From positions 1-33,703 of the forward strand of contig JAUWTD010000009.1 in the NCBI GenBank assembly GCA_030609775.1: DNA of 33,703 nt, given 5' to 3'. Source of the DNA: Candidatus Altarchaeota archaeon. Lineage in GTDB: Archaea > Altiarchaeota > Altiarchaeia > IMC4 > QMZM01. Numbering within the stretch: position 1 is the first letter of the stretch; each line of letters starts with the position of its first letter. The translations under genes and the position numbers were made by a program. Below the pieces are notes generated by a model, which saw nothing but the letters and a program-made list of their open reading frames with translations, was not told the DNA's origin and searched no databases. Positions 2 to 12,606 of this stretch are shown here, piece by piece.

Positions 2-613
2 TTTTACCAGTTCCTTGAACTATTCCTTGAAAAACTTAGCAGTGAAGGCCCCACAATAGATACACTCATATTTGGAGGAGTGGGTTCAGTTGCAGGATTC
101 ATCGCATTCATAATAGCCGTCCGCGCAGCATTCTTCTCTCTTAGAAAAATTCATTTAAGGGGGAAAGTCCCTGGAAAAATAGTAACTGCAGCCAAAGAAG
201 ACAGCAAAAGAAAAATCAAAAAACATGACATAAAAGAAATAACCTCGATCCAAGCACTCAAAGAAGACAAAAGGCTAGGTGTTGTAGTCGCCTACCTTAT
301 TGTTGCAGAATTCGGAGTCATATCATCAAAAACCATCGCAGCCCCAAATACCACAGTGGGTATGGCATTCTTCGCCACATTCATGCTAGCGGCGTTTTTC
401 TTCATCTATCAAAGCTACAGCGACTACCTGAAGGGACTGAGGCATTTAATGGTCGTTTTCGTGGTGGGGGGAATACTTTCAATAATACTAGGATATTTCT
501 GGGGAGGATACCCTCTAGAAGAACTGCTATCTGAAGCATATTTTGTCTCAGATTCAATGGTAGCATTCGTAACAGGCATAGCAGTAAGCCTCTTTATGGG
601 AAGCAAAGGATAA
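2..613 (+). CDS. Membrane protein, 5'-truncated by the window edge
   Basis: Frame is open from base 2 through the GTG at 80; several hydrophobic segments (AFFATFMLAAFFFIYQ, HLMVVFVVGGILSIILGYFWGG). Confidence 0.7.
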   Translation, partial: FYQFLELFLEKLSSEGPTIDTLIFGGVGSVAGFIAFIIAVRAAFFSLRKIHLRGKVPGKIVTAAKEDSKRKIKKHDIKEITSIQALKEDKRLGVVVAYLIVAEFGVISSKTIAAPNTTVGMAFFATFMLAAFFFIYQSYSDYLKGLRHLMVVFVVGGILSIILGYFWGGYPLEELLSEAYFVSDSMVAFVTGIAVSLFMGSKG

Positions 614-674
614 AAGGTTATTCTCAGATAATCTGCCATTAACCTTGCTAAAAAAATAGTATGTTTCTTGCATT

Positions 675-797
675 TTACCAGGAGGGATCAACCTCCATCT
701 TCCCGTCTTTGAATTTGATATACTTCTTAATCAGGCACTTAACAACCTTCACTAAAGCATCTACTTTTTCTTTGTCTCGAGGTTTACGCCTAATCAT
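675..797 (-). CDS. Small Lys-rich protein, 40 aa (MIRRKPRDKEKVDALVKVVKCLIKKYIKFKDGKMEVDPSW)
   Basis: ATG-to-TAA minus-strand ORF below the 60-aa track cutoff; protein-like composition, in an otherwise empty gap. Confidence 0.4.
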   Translation of the reverse strand: MIRRKPRDKEKVDALVKVVKCLIKKYIKFKDGKMEVDPSW

Positions 798-907
798 CTT
801 TTATCTATTCCCTCTGTTAATTATTGCAATTAGTTATTTTTGAGGTATGCACATAAAACATCCACAGAAAGAAACATGTTGGTGAAACCCACAGCATCGA
901 AAAAACC

Positions 908-967
908 GTGGAGAAAACTGTGGAGAAAACTTCGGAGAAAACTGTGGAGAAAACTTCGGAGAAAAAA
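908..967. repeat. Five tandem copies of a 12-bp unit (gtggagaaaact / tcggagaaaact)
   Basis: Units at 908, 920, 932, 944 and 956, with alternating gt/tc starts; last unit diverges at its end. Confidence 0.9.
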
Positions 968-1088
968 ACCAGATTAATAAAGGAAATCCTGTAATCACCA
1001 CGAAAAAAACTAAACAAAGAATAACCTATCTAATGATAAAGTGTGTTGGATAGCAGATTATTTTATATTGTGTAATCAGAGTTATATT

Positions 1089-1997
1089 ATGGTGAAAACC
1101 TTGTATGTTAAAGACATAGGATCAGAGAAACCCGTAGAGATGCAGTTAGCAGTATACTCGATCCGAGTCAAAAAAACCCGGAACGGCGACCACTTCATCC
1201 AGTTTGTTTTAGGTGACAGAACCGGCACAATAAATGCGAACCACTGGACCTCCAAAACCAAAAAAACCCACCAGATACTAGACGGGTTAACTGAAGGAGA
1301 CGTCGTTGAGGTTAAAGGCAGTGTAGGAAGATTCAACAACGAATACAATCTAACAGTCAGCCCCAATAAAGGAGAATACGTGCGCCGCATAGATACGGCA
1401 GAGTATGATGAATCCGACTTCAAGTACGCAGTAGACCGAGACCGGGATAAATTATTTGCTGAACTCAAAGAGTATATGGACCAAGTCACTGACACCTTCC
1501 TAAAGACGCTGGTGGAATCATTTCTATGTGACCCGGAACTAAAACAGTCTTTTATTAATTGCCCGGCCGCCCAAAGAAAACACCACAACTACCTAGGGGG
1601 TCTGATGGAGCACACATTGGGTGTGCTCAAACTCTGCGACTGCATGCAAGCATATTATAAGGGGATTGATCGAGACCTGGTTATTGTAGGGGCAATACTG
1701 CATGATTTAGGTAAAATATATACATACGAGTACGAGCGTATGGCGATATCCTGGACCGAAGAAGGAACACACCTAAACCACATAATATCATGCGATCAAC
1801 TGATATCAGAACACATCAAGGAAATAAATAACTTTCCTAAGGATTTAGAATTAAAGTTGCGTAATATGCTGTTAAGTCATCATGGGGAGGTGTCGAATGG
1901 CTGGGGTTCGGCGGTGAACCCCCAGACACCTGAAGCAGTTCTACTACATTACGCAGATTTATTGGATTCCAGGGTTAAAGGAAGACTAGATGAGTAG
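1089..1997 (+). CDS. YhaM-like 3'-5' exoribonuclease (OB fold + HD domain)
   Basis: N-terminal OB-like region (QFVLGDRTGTINANHW...EGDVVEVKGSVGRFNNEYNLTV); HD motifs HHNYLGGLMEHTLGV, ILHDLGK, LLSHHGE. ATG at 1089 preferred over the track start at 1041. Confidence 0.85.
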   Translation: MVKTLYVKDIGSEKPVEMQLAVYSIRVKKTRNGDHFIQFVLGDRTGTINANHWTSKTKKTHQILDGLTEGDVVEVKGSVGRFNNEYNLTVSPNKGEYVRRIDTAEYDESDFKYAVDRDRDKLFAELKEYMDQVTDTFLKTLVESFLCDPELKQSFINCPAAQRKHHNYLGGLMEHTLGVLKLCDCMQAYYKGIDRDLVIVGAILHDLGKIYTYEYERMAISWTEEGTHLNHIISCDQLISEHIKEINNFPKDLELKLRNMLLSHHGEVSNGWGSAVNPQTPEAVLLHYADLLDSRVKGRLDE

Positions 1998-2000
1998 GTA

Positions 2001-4481
2001 TTATATGTATGTGTTTATCGTATCTTGTTTATCAGTTATTTTCAGCACAGGATACCGGCCCCGGGTTCGATGAATCACGTCCTTGGAGATTAGATCATTT
2101 ATTTTATCAAGCACCTGCTTCTGCGTTAAATGCGACAAAACACCATAATATTTGGACTCATTGAATCCTTTCCCGATTATTTTTTTGTTTTTTGATCCGG
2201 TTAATATACCCGAAACCAATCCGCTTCCGAACCGTGATTTAGTTTCTGTGATAGTTTCCAAAATGAGTTGGGTTAGGTTTAAATCAACCCGACCTGAATC
2301 GGTTTTAGGAGGTAGAGTATCTTCTACACTGGAATCCTTGGATAGGTCTGGCCCCTGCATGGAACCCCATTCCTTGATTTTTTGGGTTATTAATGATTCG
2401 GCTTCATTTGAATGAATCACCTGCATTTCATTTTGCATCCAATCCGGAAGCAATTTCATAACACCAAAGGAGGACACATCACAGTACCGTGAATCACCTA
2501 AGAGGAGTATTCCCCGCTCCCGGGGGCTTCTTATGCATCGACCCAAGGCCTGGACTGCCGCAGTTACAGCTGAGAGATAATAGCCTATCTCTTTACCTGC
2601 GCCCCGCCCAAACATACGCTCATAGTAGTGATTGATTTTCTTTTGTTTCAGGTTCCACTGAGATAGGGGAAGACCTATAACTGCTACAGCGTTCATTGCT
2701 TCCCCTGTGAAATCAACGCCTTCACTAAAACTCCCCCGGCATACACCCAATAAAGCGGCGTTCCCATGATTTTTGTATTCTTCGATAAATTTGTGTTTGT
2801 TTATCATCCGGCTTTCATCCATTAATTCCTTCCCAGACCTCTGAGACAGGCCCAGAGAGTAGCTAAGATATTCTTCTTTCAAACCATAACTTGTGAAAAA
2901 TAATGCAATATTTCCTTCAACTGCAAACAATGCTTTCATGCATTCTTTTATGTTAGCACGGTTCATCTCATTTTCACGGAGTCTCCTCTGAGAACTTGTG
3001 TCCTTACAGCAGAGTATAAACCGGTTTTCCAGAGGAAACGGAGAAGAAATGTTCATTTCCCGAGTATTGATTTCATCATAGAACAAAAGCTTACGATATA
3101 GTTTTGTCGGCGTTAATGTCCCGGAAAGGAGTGTTAGTGATCTGAAAGAGTCCGAGAGATATTTCACTGCATCCCGGGGATCTATATCGATTATTTTCAT
3201 GGAGATATCATAGTCTTCGATATTGATTCGCCCATCAAGGGTTTCTCCAACAGTTTTCGACAAAGGTTTGATGGATACCATCTTGATGTATCGGTCCTCT
3301 GATTTGTCAAGGATCTGTTTTAATGCTTCAGCCACCCGACATATGCCCGGAAGAGGTGTTTCATCAGGGATCTGCAGGCTCTGTTTCTTTTTATGGAATT
3401 GGGTTCTTATGGATTCTGCTGCAGAATATAAACGCTCTAATGATTCAGAATCAGGCTTAAACATTTCTTCTTTAGACACTACATCCTCAATTAATCCACC
3501 TAAAAGCTCAGAGTTGTGTTTACTTGAAAACCAATTATACAAAAAAAGGTTAAGGTCTTCTAGGAGGATGACTACGTCAACAATATTTTTTTTAATTGAT
3601 TCCAGGGAATATTCGATGTCATATAGTTTTCCCTCATTAACTAACTGAAGTGCATCCAAAACATCTTTTTTACTGAACTCCAGTGAACAGATATCTTGCA
3701 GATACGCAGATAGATTATGTGCTTCATCCACTACCAGATGCACATCTTCAAAGCCACAGCCAAACCAATTAGAGCTAATAACAGATTCCCTGACATTCGG
3801 ATCAAGAAGATAATGATAGTGGAGGACTATAACATCAGATCTGCTTAACGTATTCTTCATAAGCTCATAGGGACACTTAGGATATATTCGGTTAACACAG
3901 TACATAAAAAATTTTTCAGGGGTCACAGGATTATTTAGCTGATCATTAATCAGCCTCATCGCTTCACCATTAAACAAAGACTTACTCTGATCCTCTTGGA
4001 AACAATTAATGAGATACGGACAGAATAATTCATCAGGCTTAGTAAAGCCCATGCTAGAAATCCAGTCCCGACCATACCAAACAACACCCTTTTTTATCCG
4101 GGATAAAGAATTCTTACGCATGAGACCGCATAAGTCATAGTCCACATTCATTGGGCAAACATTACCTCGTCCAACAAGCAAACCAAATTTTAAGTTGCTA
4201 TGTTTTCTTTTAACACGCATAAATTCCTGAATAAACATCCGATACTGGCTGTGGGTTCTAGTAATTACGGCAAGTTTCTCATCCTTTGACATAGCCTCCA
4301 AGACACCACCCAAAACCATGGCAGTCTTCCCTGTTCCAGTCGGACTATTCAACAATAAAGGAATACCTTCCCTAACAGAATCAAATATGCCTTCCACACC
4401 CTCTTTTTGGTGAGGTCTAAAACATTTATGTGGAAAAAACCAAAATCTTCGTCCAGAACAGCCATCGATACTATTTAACAC
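2001..4481 (-). CDS. XPD/Rad3/DinG-like SF2 helicase with Cys-rich (probable FeS) insertion and C-terminal RQC-like winged helix
   Basis: Walker A NSPTGTGKTA; GRGNVC plus downstream Cys; VVDEAHNL; LLSGTLTP; QALGRCIRSPRERG; C-terminal RFGSGLVSGILTGSKNKKI...YYG...YPVLKIT. Confidence 0.88.
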   Translation of the reverse strand: MLNSIDGCSGRRFWFFPHKCFRPHQKEGVEGIFDSVREGIPLLLNSPTGTGKTAMVLGGVLEAMSKDEKLAVITRTHSQYRMFIQEFMRVKRKHSNLKFGLLVGRGNVCPMNVDYDLCGLMRKNSLSRIKKGVVWYGRDWISSMGFTKPDELFCPYLINCFQEDQSKSLFNGEAMRLINDQLNNPVTPEKFFMYCVNRIYPKCPYELMKNTLSRSDVIVLHYHYLLDPNVRESVISSNWFGCGFEDVHLVVDEAHNLSAYLQDICSLEFSKKDVLDALQLVNEGKLYDIEYSLESIKKNIVDVVILLEDLNLFLYNWFSSKHNSELLGGLIEDVVSKEEMFKPDSESLERLYSAAESIRTQFHKKKQSLQIPDETPLPGICRVAEALKQILDKSEDRYIKMVSIKPLSKTVGETLDGRINIEDYDISMKIIDIDPRDAVKYLSDSFRSLTLLSGTLTPTKLYRKLLFYDEINTREMNISSPFPLENRFILCCKDTSSQRRLRENEMNRANIKECMKALFAVEGNIALFFTSYGLKEEYLSYSLGLSQRSGKELMDESRMINKHKFIEEYKNHGNAALLGVCRGSFSEGVDFTGEAMNAVAVIGLPLSQWNLKQKKINHYYERMFGRGAGKEIGYYLSAVTAAVQALGRCIRSPRERGILLLGDSRYCDVSSFGVMKLLPDWMQNEMQVIHSNEAESLITQKIKEWGSMQGPDLSKDSSVEDTLPPKTDSGRVDLNLTQLILETITETKSRFGSGLVSGILTGSKNKKIIGKGFNESKYYGVLSHLTQKQVLDKINDLISKDVIHRTRGRYPVLKITDKQDTINTYI

Positions 4482-4493
4482 ATCAACAATAAC

Positions 4494-5147
4494 TTAATAA
4501 CACCAAGGGGGTATGATTCGAATTGGTGCCTCGTTTCTAGGTATTCCAAACCAGTTTAAGGCTTTTGCTATGAGGTTTATAATAGAGAGCCCAATCCAAA
4601 ACATGACCATCAACAAAAATGAAGAGACTACCAAAAAGAAGATGAATATGATTAGGGATTTATCAAAGCCAAATCTCGCATTGATTGCAACATATAACAG
4701 ATACAGCCCATAGCCTATGCCCAGGTAATGCAAGACTATTGTTAATATATGGGCTCTGAATAGTCCAGTGAGCAGGACAACTGATAGAGGATATGCGATA
4801 ATAGAGATAATTTCTTCGGGTTCTACTTCCCTGCCAGTCAGGCCTTTACCGAAAAGAGAGATGATGGCCCCAGCTGCAATAGGCAAAAACACAAGAACAA
4901 GATAGGTAACAAACGCTGATTCAATAGCTGAATTAATCTGGCATGTGCTCTCAGAATCAAACCCTGCCTTATAATAGAGGTTCATAAAATAACCTATAAA
5001 GAGGGGGACACCAAAAGCCAATAGGTATCCGACCATATGACGGGAGGACTCCGGATCCAGTTCTTCGAAGAATTTGTTTGTTTTAGACGGAGTTATCATC
5101 CTAACAAAATTGATAACTTCGTTTTTAAATGACTTGATAAGACCCAT
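4494..5147 (-). CDS. Yip1-domain-like integral membrane protein
   Basis: About five hydrophobic segments; N-terminal amphipathic part then multi-TM core. Confidence 0.6.
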   Translation of the reverse strand: MGLIKSFKNEVINFVRMITPSKTNKFFEELDPESSRHMVGYLLAFGVPLFIGYFMNLYYKAGFDSESTCQINSAIESAFVTYLVLVFLPIAAGAIISLFGKGLTGREVEPEEIISIIAYPLSVVLLTGLFRAHILTIVLHYLGIGYGLYLLYVAINARFGFDKSLIIFIFFLVVSSFLLMVMFWIGLSIINLIAKALNWFGIPRNEAPIRIIPPWCY

Positions 5148-5212
5148 TTTTATCCCCAGATAGTTAATTGTTATTATTACTCTTTCATTAAATTAGTAAT
5201 CCGTAAATAAAA

Positions 5213-6331
5213 ATGTATAGCATTGTAGTAGTCAGATATGGAGAAATATTTTTAAAAAGCGAGTATGTTAAAAGAAAGTTTGAAAACAGATTCATAGAAA
5301 ATATACGATATATGCTCAAGAAAAAAGGTCTTGAAGGCAAAATCATGCGGAGAAGGCATAGAATATACATAAAAACCAGTGAAGCCGACCAGATTGCTCA
5401 TTTTCTGAGCAGGGTCTTTGGCGTGGTATCTGTAAGCCCTGCAATCGAAACCTCGGCAGATATTGAAATAATCGCTGAGGAAGGGCTTAAACTGGCAAAA
5501 AAAACAATATCAGAGAAAGAATGTTTCGCTGTGAGAGCCAAGAGAACAGGACAGCACAGCTTCGGCAGCATGGATGTGGAAAGAGCGGTCGCATCAAGGA
5601 TAATAGAGGAAATCGGTGCCCCGGTTAACTTAACTAACCCAGACAAAACAATATTTGTAGAGATAATGCAAGAAGACGCATTCGTATTTGATAAAAAGAT
5701 ACAAGGAGTGGGAGGACTACCCTATGGAACACAAAGCAAAGTCGTTGCGTTAGTCTCTTTGGGAATTGATTCCCCGGTGGCTGCGTGGATGATGATGCAT
5801 AGAGGCTGCAAGGTAGTTGCGCTGCACTTCAACATAGAAGAGAGGACAGGAGGAATAGAAGATATCCTAAAGGTACTTGAGGAGTTTTCCATTCACAGGA
5901 TAAAGCTTTATGTCGTACCCTATGACAATATTCTTGCAGATATTGCAAAAAATTCAGGCAAATATGCCTGCGTTATCTGTAAAAGAACCATGCTGAGGAT
6001 TGCACAAAAAATATCTGCCATAGAGAAAGCCCATGGCATAGTCACAGGAGACAGCATTGGACAGGTTGCAAGCCAGACCATCGAAAATTTGGAGACACTC
6101 AGCGAGGTTGCATCACCCATCTACAGGCCCTTGATAGGCATGGACAAAAAAGAGATAATAGACAAAGCAAGGATAATAGAAACCTATAAACTTGCGGATA
6201 AAAGAAGATGCTGGTTTGTACCTAAAAAACCTGCAACAATATCAGATCTGGATGAAATAAAGGCAATAGAGTCAAAGATAGGTATAGGGAAACTTATAGA
6301 TGAAATAGATTTAGAATGTTTAGTAAAATAG
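5213..6331 (+). CDS. thiI: tRNA 4-thiouridine sulfurtransferase ThiI (archaeal, no rhodanese domain)
   Basis: THUMP-like N-terminus, PP-loop VSLGIDSPVAAW, CVIC (CXXC) motif. Confidence 0.9.
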   Translation: MYSIVVVRYGEIFLKSEYVKRKFENRFIENIRYMLKKKGLEGKIMRRRHRIYIKTSEADQIAHFLSRVFGVVSVSPAIETSADIEIIAEEGLKLAKKTISEKECFAVRAKRTGQHSFGSMDVERAVASRIIEEIGAPVNLTNPDKTIFVEIMQEDAFVFDKKIQGVGGLPYGTQSKVVALVSLGIDSPVAAWMMMHRGCKVVALHFNIEERTGGIEDILKVLEEFSIHRIKLYVVPYDNILADIAKNSGKYACVICKRTMLRIAQKISAIEKAHGIVTGDSIGQVASQTIENLETLSEVASPIYRPLIGMDKKEIIDKARIIETYKLADKRRCWFVPKKPATISDLDEIKAIESKIGIGKLIDEIDLECLVK

Positions 6332-7059
6332 TTTTATTTTATAGTAGAGACTCCGCCGGAAGAAATATTGCAAGAATCCTGGAAAAAATATCTGATGTGA
6401 ACATAGTCAGAGTAGAAAAAGAAATCCTATATCATAAGACGCTGCAAATAAACCCGGAGGTATGTATTGTTGCATCAAGGCATAAATCAGACTCAGGGAT
6501 CCAGGTTCTAACAACCCATTCACCAGGAAACTTTGGCACTGCAGAGTTTGGCGGAAATCTGCGTGAACTCTCTATTGCCCCGGCAACGTATCTGCGGAAG
6601 GCACTCATCTGTCTGGAGGAGGAAAAAGAAAAAAGAGACCTAGAATATGAAACAAGCTTTGAGGCAACACATCATGGACCAACATCCCTTGGATTCCCGA
6701 TAATGTTTGTTGAGGTAGGCAGCTCAGAAAAACAATGGAGTGATTTGGATGCATGCAGCGCTGTTGCAGAGGCCATAAAAAGGCTTGTTGAATCAGAGCC
6801 TGAGGACACACCTTCTGCAATAGGTTTAGGGGGAGGACACTATTGCAGAAAGTTTTCAAAGATCAGAAAATATGCAATAGGCCACATCTGCCCAAAACAC
6901 AATTTAGGTAGATTAGATAAGGTCATGATAGAGCAGATGATAGCAAAAACAATGCCTAAACCAGAGGTTGCATTAATTGAGAAAAAAGGCATGGGCACAG
7001 AAAAACATAGGATCATCGGTTTACTTGAAGAAACAGGATTAGATGTTGTGAAAATCTAA
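6316..7059 (+). CDS. dtdA: Archaeal D-aminoacyl-tRNA deacylase (DTD2 family)
   Basis: ATHHGPTSLGFPIMFVEVGSSEKQW, GGGHYCRKF; overlaps the thiI 3' end by 16 bp. Confidence 0.88.
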   Translation: MFSKIVLFYSRDSAGRNIARILEKISDVNIVRVEKEILYHKTLQINPEVCIVASRHKSDSGIQVLTTHSPGNFGTAEFGGNLRELSIAPATYLRKALICLEEEKEKRDLEYETSFEATHHGPTSLGFPIMFVEVGSSEKQWSDLDACSAVAEAIKRLVESEPEDTPSAIGLGGGHYCRKFSKIRKYAIGHICPKHNLGRLDKVMIEQMIAKTMPKPEVALIEKKGMGTEKHRIIGLLEETGLDVVKI

Positions 7060-8060
7060 CCCTCCCTCATATTCCGATATAATGGATCCACGTCATTTTC
7101 TGCAATCAAGGCATCCAAAACACCCCCTATCTTCAGCCTCCTCGTCAAATAGTCAGTTAACCTCATAGGATAGATCTGGGTGTGCAATATGTCATCTTCC
7201 ATAAGCCATAAGCCTGCGATAACTGCTAGATCCTGCCTGAAATCGTCGTATGAGAACTCCCACCTAACAACTAAAGGATTGCTTTTTCTTGAATGAATAT
7301 AATTCAGAGGTTTTGAAGGTAGCTTCAGGTGACATATATTTACGCCGTCTTTTTTCTCTGACACATACTCACAATCATCCAAAACCATATCCAATAAAAC
7401 AATATTCGGAACTTCAAAACCCATGCGCCTTGCCAGATCAGATGAATGAGAATCCTCAACCAAACCAATAACCTTCCCCATACCCATTAATTCCTTATGC
7501 AATCTAAGAGCCGCCTTATGTTCAGGGAATCCTGAAATCTTAGCTTCATTTTTCAACCTCGCAAGGTTAGTTTGGAGGCTTCCATCCACCAAAAAATAAT
7601 CCACACTCCCTGAATCCATACACCTATATGAATCCATTAAAGAGGCATACTCTCCCATAATCCTAAGAGAATTCATTCTAGAGTCTATATGCCTATACGG
7701 CAAAAAAACCCCGATATCAGGAAAAGAATTATACATTAGATTCACATACCCTATTTCCCCCTGCGCCAAAGGATCAGGATGCCTGCTTCCATCGAATTCA
7801 GAGTATAAGACAACCGGATGAGAACCCCAGATCGCATGATATCTAAGCTCTTTTTTGACTATTGCAGAGTCAACAGACAAAAAAGATATGTTTTTGGGTG
7901 TCTCTGGTTTCAGTTTTTGCACCCTAACATCCTCGGCAATAAATCTTTTGCGTAACAGCTCCCGATCAAACTCCTTTTTTGTTAATTCACCTGCAATATT
8001 TTTGAATTTATCCTCAAGAAAGGACGCATCAAACCTGAAGTCGGGGCTAAGAATCTCCAT
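7056..8060 (-). CDS. NurA-domain-like nuclease
   Basis: VDSAIVKKELRYH, YFLVDGSLQTNLARLK, IGLVEDSHSSDLARR are NurA-like Asp motifs. Confidence 0.65.
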   Translation of the reverse strand: MEILSPDFRFDASFLEDKFKNIAGELTKKEFDRELLRKRFIAEDVRVQKLKPETPKNISFLSVDSAIVKKELRYHAIWGSHPVVLYSEFDGSRHPDPLAQGEIGYVNLMYNSFPDIGVFLPYRHIDSRMNSLRIMGEYASLMDSYRCMDSGSVDYFLVDGSLQTNLARLKNEAKISGFPEHKAALRLHKELMGMGKVIGLVEDSHSSDLARRMGFEVPNIVLLDMVLDDCEYVSEKKDGVNICHLKLPSKPLNYIHSRKSNPLVVRWEFSYDDFRQDLAVIAGLWLMEDDILHTQIYPMRLTDYLTRRLKIGGVLDALIAENDVDPLYRNMREG

Positions 8061-8105
8061 TTTTAATCTATTGACTCAGAATAATATTATGAGTGGACAA
8101 TTAAA

Positions 8106-9362
8106 ATGAATCAAAAATTTCTTTTAAAGATAGCAGAAAAATTAGGCACACCCCTGTATGTTTACAGCGAAGAGCAGATAAGGAAAAATTATAGAGAATT
8201 TCTGTCAGCATTCAAGAGCAGATACAGGAATACAAAAATATTTTATGCATTAAAGGCCAATTCCTCACTTGCAATCTGCCACATACTCCGCCAAGAGGGT
8301 TCTTGCGCGGATGTTGTGTCCATAGGCGAACTTAAGGTAGCCCAGAGAATAGGTATAAAACCAAAAGATATAATATTCACAAACAACAGCAAAACAGACC
8401 AAGATTTAGATGACGCCATTGAAGCAGGTATCATAGTAAACATTGATTCAATCGATGAATTACATAGGTTACATAAGATAGCGAAAAACAAAAGAAAAGC
8501 AGTAAATGTCTCTTTTAGGGTGAATCCAGCAATAGATCCGAAAACACACCCAAAGATATCTACCGGCCTTAAAGAGTCTAAGTTCGGAATTCACTTAGAG
8601 AATAACATAGCGTTGGATGCATACATTACTGCCCAAACCCTTGATTGGATAGAAATCAAAGGAATACACACACATATAGGCTCACAGATAACAGACATGA
8701 ACGCATTTAAGGATATGACAGAAAAAATAATGCAGTTTACATTAGAGCTTAAAGAGAAAATAGGATTAGAGTTGAAATTCATAGACCTTGGAGGAGGACT
8801 AGGCATCCAATACACCGATGATGCGACTCCGACACCAGACGATTATGCAGGAACAATAATACCGGTTGTTAATGAATACAACAAAAAACTTAATTACGAA
8901 CCGGAACTATGGTTTGAACCAGGCAGATATATTTTAGGAAACGTAGGAGTGCTTTTATGCAAGGTCACAGGAGTTAAGGAGACCCCATATAAGAAGTTCG
9001 TAAACGTTGATGCAGGATTCAATGTATTGATGAGGCCTTCTATGTATGATTCATATCATAGAATCCAGGTCTTAAACAGGATTGATGAAAACGCAACCGA
9101 GACATATGACATAGTCGGAAACATCTGTGAATCAGGGGATATCTTGGCAAGAGAAAGAAAACTTCCAAGAGTCAAAGGAGGAGACATAATAGCAGTATAT
9201 GACACAGGCGCATATGGATTTAGTATGTCCAGCCAATACAACCAAAGACCCCGGCCTGCTGAAATACTTACATGGGGTGGAACAGTAGAGGTCATCAGGG
9301 AAAAAGAAACCTTTGACGACCTACTCAGAAACCAAAAAGCACCCAACGACCTCATAGATTAA
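8106..9362 (+). CDS. lysA: Diaminopimelate decarboxylase
   Basis: GTPLYVYSEEQIR, FYALKANSS, HTHIGSQI, GGGLGIQY, EPGRYI, ESGD. Confidence 0.95.
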   Translation: MNQKFLLKIAEKLGTPLYVYSEEQIRKNYREFLSAFKSRYRNTKIFYALKANSSLAICHILRQEGSCADVVSIGELKVAQRIGIKPKDIIFTNNSKTDQDLDDAIEAGIIVNIDSIDELHRLHKIAKNKRKAVNVSFRVNPAIDPKTHPKISTGLKESKFGIHLENNIALDAYITAQTLDWIEIKGIHTHIGSQITDMNAFKDMTEKIMQFTLELKEKIGLELKFIDLGGGLGIQYTDDATPTPDDYAGTIIPVVNEYNKKLNYEPELWFEPGRYILGNVGVLLCKVTGVKETPYKKFVNVDAGFNVLMRPSMYDSYHRIQVLNRIDENATETYDIVGNICESGDILARERKLPRVKGGDIIAVYDTGAYGFSMSSQYNQRPRPAEILTWGGTVEVIREKETFDDLLRNQKAPNDLID

Positions 9363-10702
9363 AGGATTATCTGATGCTTTTTAAGTTCATGTTCAATAAT
9401 TTCCTTAATTTCGGCAAGCCTCTTTTTTGTCTTAGCCTCAAACCTCAGAATCAATGCAGGCTCCGTGTTTGATGCACGCACAAGACCCCAGCCATCTTTG
9501 AATTGTATTCTTGCACCGTCAACAGTAATAACATCATATGATTTCTTGAATTTCTCAGTTATTTCCCCGACAATTTTGAACTTGACATCATCAGGACAAG
9601 GAATCCTTATCTCAGGGGTTGACTCATATTGAGGGGTTCGGGCAATAATATCTGAGAGCAACATATCAGAATTCGACAGGATCTGCGCCATTCGCAGAGA
9701 CGCAAATATTGCATCATCAAAACCATAATAGTTGTCTGCAAAAAAGAAGTGACCAGACATCTCCCCGGCAAGCAAAGCATCCTCTTCCTTCATCTTCTTT
9801 TTTATGAACGAATGACCGGTTCGATACATGATAGGTATGCCCCCATGCTCTTTGATATCTTCAATTAACGCCTGAGAACACTTCACTTCCAGGATTATCT
9901 TTGCTTTTTTGTGTTTTTTGAGGATTTCTCTTGAAAACAACATCAAAGCCTGATCACCCCGAATTATTGAGCCCTTATCATCCACGAACCCGGCCCGGTC
10001 GCCGTCGCCGTCATATGCTACACCAAAATCTGCATCCTCCACCCGCACCCTTTCAATCAAATCCGCAAGTACTGCATCCACTGTCGGATCAGGATGATGG
10101 TTCGGGAAACTGCCGTCAGGTTCACAGTATAGTGGCACTACAGTGCAGCCAAGATCCTTAAATAGTTTTAGCGCAGTTGGTCCGGCAGATCCGTTTCCTG
10201 CATCCACCACAACTTTTAGGGGTCTTCCCAAGTTTATCTTTTCCTTCACTAACTCCACATAGTCATCTGTTATCTCTTTTTTAACAACCCGGCCATTACC
10301 CACCGAATAGTCTCCGGACTCAATTATCCTTCTAATCTTTTGTATACTGTCACCGTATAGTGCTTCGGTTCCCCGGCACATCTTAAAGCCATTATATTCC
10401 GCTGCATTATGTGATCCGGTAATCATGATACCTCCATCCATCTCACAGCATCTGATTGAAAAATATAGAACAGGGGTGGGAACCATTCCAATATCAGTCA
10501 CATTACATCCTACAGAAACCAATCCCTTGATGAGTGCATCATTTAACGCAGGAGAACTCAACCTACAGTCTGCTCCAACAACAATATCGCCGCCGCCAAC
10601 ATATGTCCCAAAAGCCTTCCCTATATTCTGGGCCATGTCCTCAGACAAATCCTTGCCAACCACACCACGTATATCATATGCACGAAATATAGACATATTC
10701 AC
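9359..10702 (-). CDS. Phosphomannomutase/phosphoglucomutase family
   Basis: ITGSHNAAEYNGFKM (catalytic Ser), VAYDGDGDRAGFVDD, GEMSGHFFF, VRASNTEPALILRFEA. Confidence 0.93.
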   Translation of the reverse strand: MNMSIFRAYDIRGVVGKDLSEDMAQNIGKAFGTYVGGGDIVVGADCRLSSPALNDALIKGLVSVGCNVTDIGMVPTPVLYFSIRCCEMDGGIMITGSHNAAEYNGFKMCRGTEALYGDSIQKIRRIIESGDYSVGNGRVVKKEITDDYVELVKEKINLGRPLKVVVDAGNGSAGPTALKLFKDLGCTVVPLYCEPDGSFPNHHPDPTVDAVLADLIERVRVEDADFGVAYDGDGDRAGFVDDKGSIIRGDQALMLFSREILKKHKKAKIILEVKCSQALIEDIKEHGGIPIMYRTGHSFIKKKMKEEDALLAGEMSGHFFFADNYYGFDDAIFASLRMAQILSNSDMLLSDIIARTPQYESTPEIRIPCPDDVKFKIVGEITEKFKKSYDVITVDGARIQFKDGWGLVRASNTEPALILRFEAKTKKRLAEIKEIIEHELKKHQIIL

Positions 10703-10711
10703 ACCCTCACT

Positions 10712-11542
10712 TTAGTTAATTCCCTTCCATTCTTTTATTGCTTTCTCATAAGCGTCATGGGTTCCGGTATCAAACCACTGCCCATCAAACGGGTAGCCGA
10801 AGAGTCTGCCGTCTTGTGCAAGCCGGGGAAATACATCAGTTTCCATCATAGCCTTGCCCTCAGGTACATAATCCAGAACCTTAGGATCTATCACATAGAC
10901 ACCCGCGTTTATGAGCTTTGAGTGTACACCGGTTGAGGGTTTCTCGATGAACTCCAGTATCTGGTTCCCCCGAAGCCTTGCAACACCAAAACGCGAAGGA
11001 TCTTTTACAGGGGTCAACGCGATTGTTGCAAGCGCATTACTCTCACCGTGAAACATTATGAAATTATGGAGGTCTATATTTGCAAGAATATCTCCATTAA
11101 ACATAAGAAAAGAACCCTTCAAAACATCCCTCATTAGATTTAATGCACCGGCCGTACCCAGTTCATCCTCTTCCTCAATATAGGATATGTCTACACCAAG
11201 CTTTGAACCATCACCAAAGTATTCCCTGATCTTATCACCCATGTATCCTGTTGAGAGGATTATGTCCCTTATATCATATCTCCTCAACAGCTCAATGATA
11301 TGCTGCACAAGAGGTTTACCCTGAACAGGAATCATTGGCTTAGGCATCTCATAGGTGAATGGCCGCATCCTTGTCCCTTTGCCGCCTGCAAGAATCACTG
11401 CCTTATTGACCTTTTTTGCATACAGCAGCCTTGAGAGGATTATCTCAATCGCATGCGACCTATCTTTTACCTCCACTCCATCTACCATACGATCTATCCC
11501 AGACACAAGATCATCCCGAAGATTTATCCTAAACTCAGTCAT
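10712..11542 (-). CDS. Sugar-phosphate nucleotidyltransferase with N-terminal ribbon-helix-helix-like domain
   Basis: N-term RINLRDDLVSGIDRMVDGVEVKDRSHAIEIILSRLL; then AVILAGGKGTRMRPFTYEMPKPMIPVQGKP, FNGDILANID, EFIEKP. Confidence 0.9.
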   Translation of the reverse strand: MTEFRINLRDDLVSGIDRMVDGVEVKDRSHAIEIILSRLLYAKKVNKAVILAGGKGTRMRPFTYEMPKPMIPVQGKPLVQHIIELLRRYDIRDIILSTGYMGDKIREYFGDGSKLGVDISYIEEEDELGTAGALNLMRDVLKGSFLMFNGDILANIDLHNFIMFHGESNALATIALTPVKDPSRFGVARLRGNQILEFIEKPSTGVHSKLINAGVYVIDPKVLDYVPEGKAMMETDVFPRLAQDGRLFGYPFDGQWFDTGTHDAYEKAIKEWKGIN

Positions 11543-11580
11543 TTCGTGATTAAATATTTGGTTTCCTTCAAATTAAATAC

Positions 11581-12606
11581 ATGAAGATGATATCCATCAA
11601 CGGAGCACGTGGAGAAGGCGGCGGACAGATCCTGAGGACATGTACCGCATTAAGTGCAGTAACTGGTGAGAAATTCAGGATAGAGAATATAAGAGCCAAC
11701 AGACCAAATCCAGGTATAAGGCCGCAACACCTGCATGCGATAGATGCGGTAGCCAGACTCTGTGATGCGAAAGTGGACGGGCTTTATATTGGATCAAGTA
11801 AGCTGGAGTTTAATCCAGGAAACCTTCAAGGAGGCAGAATAAAGCTCAACATAGGCACGGCAGGATCAGTAACATTACTCCTGCAAGCCATAATGATCCC
11901 TGCAATGTTTACAAAAAAAGCAGTTAAACTAAGGATTACAGGAGGAACCGATGTAAAATGGAGCCCATCCATAGATTATCTAAGATACGTTACGCTGCCG
12001 GTTTTGAAGAGATTCGGTTACAAAGCAAATATCAGCCTTGATAGGAGAGGATATTATCCAAGAGGAGGCGGCATAGTTGAAGCAGAGATAGAGCCCATCA
12101 AAGGAATGGAAAAAATTAATCTAACCAAGCAGGGAAAACTTCTCAGGGTTAGAGGGATCTCACATGCCCACAGAAACCTGAAGAATGCAGAGGTCGCAAA
12201 GAGACAGATGGAATCCGCAAGATCTCTGTTATATAACAGGCTAACAGATACAGACATCAGAGAAAACATAAAAATCAAAGAAGAATACTCAGACACCTTA
12301 TGTTATGGTTCAGGGATCACATTATGGGTAAAAACAGAGAATACAATACTTGGATCAGACCATATCGGAGAAAAAGGGAAAAAATCAGAGGCTGTTGGAA
12401 AAGAGGCTGCAGAAGACATAATCAAAGAGATAGATTCAAATGCCGCATTAGACAAGTACATGGCAGACCAGATCATACCGTATCTTGCCTTATTGGGTGG
12501 GTGTGTAAGGGTAAGTGAGATAACACAGCATACGAAAACCAATGTGGATGTGGCAACTGAATTCGGCTTCAAGATACGCATTAAAGGAAACACTATTCAA
12601 GGCTAA
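11581..12606 (+). CDS. rtcA: RNA 3'-terminal phosphate cyclase
   Basis: GARGEGGGQILRTCTALSAVTG, RPNPGIRPQHLHAI, GTAGSVTLLLQ, GYYPRGGG, TDVKWSPS. Confidence 0.95.
   Translation: MKMISINGARGEGGGQILRTCTALSAVTGEKFRIENIRANRPNPGIRPQHLHAIDAVARLCDAKVDGLYIGSSKLEFNPGNLQGGRIKLNIGTAGSVTLLLQAIMIPAMFTKKAVKLRITGGTDVKWSPSIDYLRYVTLPVLKRFGYKANISLDRRGYYPRGGGIVEAEIEPIKGMEKINLTKQGKLLRVRGISHAHRNLKNAEVAKRQMESARSLLYNRLTDTDIRENIKIKEEYSDTLCYGSGITLWVKTENTILGSDHIGEKGKKSEAVGKEAAEDIIKEIDSNAALDKYMADQIIPYLALLGGCVRVSEITQHTKTNVDVATEFGFKIRIKGNTIQG

Follow-up and report, generated by a model that had tools for sequence, protein, structure and literature searches.

RecQ helicases translocate 3′ to 5′ on DNA. In WRN and BLM, the RQC domain uses a Gly-Ser loop and a wing to bind duplex ends and branch points of any sequence, and it acts as a strand-splitting wedge; a 2014 review called the domain unique to RecQ (PMC4212688). 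Helicases of the XPD/DinG family run the other way: in DinG the 5′ end of the single-stranded DNA lies on HD2, and the enzyme moves 5′ to 3′ with HD1 and the Fe-S domain leading (PMC6300356). Members of this family can carry an accessory domain, which in the DinG proteins of S. aureus and B. subtilis is an N-terminal DEDD exonuclease; a 2025 review of DinG-like proteins makes no mention of RQC (PMC11981726). Here we describe an archaeal protein that also joins an XPD-family motor to an accessory domain, but in which that domain is a C-terminal RQC. No description of an XPD motor with an RQC was found in the open-access literature, which is what our search covered. The RQC and the XPD motor are each known; what is new is the combination, its recurrence and the twist in polarity.

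The window, the whole 33,703-nt stretch of DNA that was analyzed, is contig C50 of an Altiarchaeota metagenome-assembled genome (G000; 1.36 Mb, 74% complete). The helicase is encoded by a single uninterrupted open reading frame of 826 codons, and its motor has the following features.

2001..4481, minus strand: gene for the XPD-RQC helicase of 826 aa, with GTG as start codon; the interval includes the stop codon
2391..4439, minus strand: XPD/Rad3-type motor (HD1, Fe-S, Arch, HD2), residues ~15-697, from TIGR00604 (15-693), AlphaFold and fold match
4323..4343, minus strand: Walker A, P47-T53 (PTGTGKT), intact
3873..4157, minus strand: Fe-S domain with C109, C118, C154 and C203, from the XPD alignment
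3717..3728, minus strand: motif II DEAH, residues 252-255, intact
2529..2552, minus strand: motif VI QALGRCIR, residues 644-651, intact

The rad3 model TIGR00604 matches the motor with an E value of 4e-60 (204 bits, under the model's 247-bit cut-off), and DEAD_2, HBB and Helicase_C_2 occur in that order, all exceeding their Pfam cut-offs. Most of the motor is modeled by AlphaFold with pLDDT 85-98; its best fold matches are the Thermoplasma acidophilum XPD structures 9p55 and 4a15, and the Fe-S and Arch domains are seen in the XPD fold of the model, with TM ≤0.81 when normalised to the XPD chain. Motif V is intact along with the motifs listed above, and the columns holding the four Fe-S cysteines are nearly all Cys among 49 aligned XPDs. 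These results bear out the earlier note, which had taken the remainder of the protein to be an XPD/DinG-like SF2 helicase. Judged by its motor and Fe-S motifs, the window protein is an XPD-family Fe-S helicase with its catalytic apparatus intact, and family membership predicts 5′ to 3′ translocation. It resembles archaeal XPD of T. acidophilum (4a15/9p55) in its HD1, Fe-S, Arch and HD2 domains, its four Fe-S cysteines and its motifs I, II, V and VI; in contrast to that protein, with which it shares ~20% identity in the structure alignment, it has an enlarged Fe-S region and an added linker and RQC.

Behind the motor lie these elements.

2274..2351, minus strand: flexible linker, residues 711-736 (~26), pLDDT < 50
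2025..2273, minus strand: RQC domain, predicted winged helix, residues 737-819, from PF09382 and from RecQ structures by sequence and fold
2193..2198, minus strand: G762-S763, in the loop used by WRN and BLM to contact DNA, from the profile alignment to WRN 3aaf

An RQC domain had been proposed at 2004-2288 from the sequence, and the PF09382 match falls inside that interval. Pfam RQC is the best profile match, ahead of any generic winged helix (E 1.4e-17 with the whole protein as query; E 4.9e-19 and 68.7 bits, against a gathering cut-off of 23, with the C-terminal 109 residues), and the runner-up family on the C-terminal piece has an E value of 0.06. The proposed length of ~95 residues did not stand: the domain spans ~83-91, and the peptide quoted for it has 79 letters. 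The NCBIfam RecQ model matches the protein through its RQC part (736-817, E 1.6e-8), sequence searches of the PDB return Cronobacter RecQ 4tmu (E 2e-4) and E. coli RecQ 1oyw, and a family-profile search adds Deinococcus RecQ and the WRN RQC 3aaf. The RQC was modeled without a usable alignment, viral RecQ scans having yielded one usable RQC, and its pLDDT is accordingly 30-57; even so, the five best PDB matches of the low-confidence RQC-only model (mean pLDDT 57) are RecQ cores (prob 1.00, TM 0.6), with MarR-type winged helices ranking behind them. A generic winged helix is thus ruled out by profile, sequence and fold, all of which point to RQC/RecQ. The Gly-Ser loop and the lysines for DNA contact are kept in nearly all RQC copies compared, and the wing is short (RGRYP), like that of bacterial RecQ, with WRN's aromatic tip absent.

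The resemblance to RecQ (E. coli 1oyw, Cronobacter 4tmu and the archaeal L138-L150) is to the RQC, with its Gly-(Ser/Ala) loop and short wing, and, among relatives of the window protein, to HRDC. The remainder differs: the window protein has an XPD/Rad3 Fe-S motor of predicted 5′ to 3′ polarity, as opposed to a DEAD/Helicase_C motor running 3′ to 5′. The RecQ motor model (DEAD + Helicase_C, TIGR00614) scores 11.5 bits on the protein against 219.8, and PF16124, the zinc-binding subdomain that usually precedes RQC, has no match in it. The join of two helicase lineages announced by the earlier note is accordingly one of a true RQC with a true XPD-type motor. A type IV CRISPR DinG (CasDinG) was considered and rejected: plain archaeal XPDs outscore the window protein on the same PADLOC model, 408 vs 281 bits, which makes the 'typeIV_DinG' match uninformative, and the genes at 80-12606 are housekeeping or unmatched, with no CRISPR neighbors among them.

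The helicase gene is flanked by the following genes.

4494..5147, minus strand: Yip1-domain membrane protein, in the same direction as the helicase gene and 12 bp upstream of it
1041..1997, plus strand: OB-fold and HD-domain protein, convergent neighbor of the helicase gene

Within the family the Yip1 gene is a conserved neighbor of ThiI. In G001, a genome of the same genus, the order Yip1, ThiI, D-aminoacyl-tRNA deacylase and onward is kept, with identities of 55-79%, yet neither the helicase nor the OB-HD gene is present beyond Yip1; because it is missing there, the helicase gene is considered accessory at the locus. Within the family the OB-fold and HD gene is confined to G000, G002 and G004; the G004 copy lies 5.5 kb from a gene for a helicase of the order XPD-HRDC-RQC. 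An assembly or binning artefact was rejected, since the reading frame is intact, the nearby ThiI (62-67% identical within the family) is collinear in G001, and an RQC on an XPD motor is also present in the independent genome G004, where the RQC is 39% identical to that of the window. A virus or plasmid origin was rejected as well, no closely related copy having been found in viral contigs, phages or plasmids.

The protein of G004, which belongs to the same family, is the closest relative; its motor is 56% identical, and it has an HRDC (E 2.4e-14) at the position of the linker, between motor and RQC. This group probably has a third member in G010, seen as a fragment at a contig end. G010 also has a separate ordinary XPD, and none was found in G000 (74% complete) or G004 (92% complete), both of which have a full-length XPD-RQC of the window type. 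A second group, ~26% identical overall to the window protein, comprises proteins of G002 (XPD-RQC-HTH_40-RQC), G013 and G025 (XPD-RQC-HRDC), G026 (XPD-RQC-RQC-HRDC) and G027 (XPD-RQC-HRDC, fused in frame to PsyrT). RQC is thus found in 7 of 29 Altiarchaeota genomes, on an XPD-type motor in all seven, and five of the seven proteins also carry HRDC. RecQ proper was not found in the 29 genomes, two PsyrT copies aside: the only RecQ-family motors that pass the cut-off are those of G026 and G027, both PsyrT.

In G027 (contig C53), one frame of 1588 aa at L032 4416-9182 comprises XPD-RQC-HRDC and a full-length PsyrT (RecQ motor, Zn domain and phosphoribosyltransferase; PADLOC E 1e-267), and it is adjoined by a probable PsyrA, ortholog of the adjacent PsyrA of G026. 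The helicase, PsyrT and PsyrA of G026 (L038) are separate adjacent genes, and the corresponding locus of G025 (L031) is without PsyrTA. G013 also encodes an RQC-HRDC-HEAT protein with no helicase motor (L033 3623-5425, contig C224), whose N-terminal part ahead of the RQC is unassigned and which adjoins a gene for a UvrD-like helicase. Outside the XPD-RQC and RQC-HRDC-HEAT proteins, the only Altiarchaeota proteins with HRDC are RNase D-like ones from G000 and G004 (L233 7048-8148 on G000:C42 and L234 7062-8135 on G004:C11), which combine a DEDD 3′-5′ exonuclease with HRDC; in these two genomes with full-length window-type XPD-RQC, the parts of the two proteins together resemble those of WRN, in trans.

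When 394 archaeal genomes were surveyed, XPD joined to RQC appeared only in Altiarchaeota, and none of the papers searched mentions the architecture. RQC was present in 25 of the 394, on XPD-type motors in 7, RecQ in 13 and UvrD-like helicases in 4, with 1 apparent chance match; the best 80 matches listed in a scan of genome contigs are plain XPDs, none with RQC. The rarity holds for the sampled archaea, as bacteria were covered only via phages, plasmids, viral contigs and the nearest XPDs. The UvrD/Rep-like SF1 helicases (L151, L152 and L153, with L154 weaker) form a third RQC-bearing helicase lineage; they share with the window protein an RQC on a non-RecQ motor, but their motor is of SF1 type and their RQC is N-terminal.

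Among 76 motors placed in a tree, those of the window protein and of G004 group (SH-aLRT 99%) with a pair of RQC-less proteins from a different archaeal family, forming a deep branch separate from archaeal XPD, whereas the other five XPD-RQC motors nest in ordinary XPDs, beside Methanophagales XPD. The RQC-less sisters (L166 4736-7006 of G290 and L167 5068-7278 of G204) have XPD-type motors and share with the window motor its enlarged Fe-S region and C-terminal end. A single origin of all XPD-RQC proteins was rejected with these sisters included, monophyly costing 95 log units (p-AU 3.1e-6); without them the same test is not significant (p-AU 0.09), so the double-origin result rests partly on the sisters, and the tree is a quick one with some long branches. 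A tree of the RQC domains, too short to discriminate by itself (p-AU 0.09 for a single origin), groups the window RQC with RecQ, the RQCs of the second group lying closer to the UvrD type; weak as this tree is, it is in agreement with the motor tree. From these comparisons it is very probable that XPD motors captured an RQC at least twice. Its presence in two non-sister motor clades suggests selection for the combination, and a join made at least twice suggests that the RQC is a movable module.

How would an RQC serve a motor of this polarity? We somewhat favor a model in which the domain, on its tether, recognizes duplex ends and branch points and docks the 5′ to 3′ motor on junction DNA from the trailing side. 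An XPD-family motor would have acquired RecQ's RQC at its C-terminus through a flexible linker. The RQC family and the conserved G762-S763 of the DNA-contacting loop predict junction binding, and the site bound, by analogy with WRN and BLM, is presumably a duplex end or branch point of any sequence. The domain would thereby dock the single-strand motor at forks, gaps, flaps or D-loops and confer a RecQ-like choice of substrate. Since HD2 is the trailing part of a 5′ to 3′ motor and the RQC comes after it, the domain is expected on the trailing (5′) side, where it would act as an anchor or loading clamp, whereas in RecQ it sits ahead, as a wedge. The docking model is supported by the recurrence of RQC on XPD motors, often with HRDC, in a phylum without ordinary RecQ; weighed against it are the low confidence of the RQC model, which leaves the position of the domain relative to the motor a prediction, the accessory nature of the gene, absent in G001, and the missing RecQ Zn subdomain. 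G4 processing by the window protein is possible. The earlier note had suggested G4, fork or junction processing from the presence of RQC, but G4 activity is not diagnostic of the domain, since G4 is also unwound by XPD/DinG helicases that lack RQC (PMC10400533).

The linker, long and disordered (pLDDT < 50), may let the RQC reach either side of the motor. Were the domain to cross to the leading edge, its wing could split the duplex ahead, making the protein a RecQ-like helicase of reverse polarity, as the strand splitting by the WRN/BLM RQC would allow (PMC4212688). We think this unlikely: HD2, which precedes the RQC, trails in a 5′ to 3′ SF2 motor (PMC6300356), Fe-S and Arch already serve XPD as separation elements, and the short RGRYP wing, which is without WRN's aromatic tip, fits a clamp better than a wedge. 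It is similarly improbable that the RQC, with HRDC in the relatives, serves as a module for protein-protein contacts or autoregulation, without acting on DNA directly. Protein binding is common among HRDC and other winged helices, and the order and number of domains vary among the relatives (XPD-RQC, XPD-HRDC-RQC, XPD-RQC-HRDC, XPD-RQC-RQC-HRDC and XPD-RQC-HTH_40-RQC), as such a module might permit; the retention of the DNA-contacting Gly-Ser loop and lysines in nearly all copies argues otherwise.

The function of the protein might also lie in defence against foreign DNA and not in repair. An intact PsyrT-PsyrA pair directly downstream of the helicase of G026, the in-frame fusion to PsyrT in G027 and the patchy distribution of the gene would fit such a role. 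Yet the same LeuRS/tubulin-like locus in G025 has the helicase without PsyrTA, the neighbors in the window are housekeeping genes, the 'typeIV_DinG' match carries no information for the reason given above, and viral contigs, phages and plasmids hold no closely related copy; we therefore give defence little weight. Returning to the docking model, a broader version can be put forward tentatively, as conceivable though short of probable: RQC, with HRDC, would be a transferable cassette for reading branched DNA, which RecQ-lacking archaea joined on more than one occasion, from different donors, to 5′ to 3′ XPD motors (elsewhere to UvrD-like ones), yielding reverse-polarity stand-ins for RecQ with the RQC behind the motor.

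The XPD-RQC proteins amount to a natural experiment, in which an RQC is placed on a motor predicted to run opposite to that of RecQ. An RQC that sits on XPD motors expected to run the other way, as the probable result of two joins, allows the role of the domain to be separated from that of the RecQ motor, and the question of wedge versus junction reader becomes testable in one compact enzyme. For the Altiarchaeota, a phylum without ordinary RecQ, the XPD-RQC helicases suggest a route for the processing of branched DNA.
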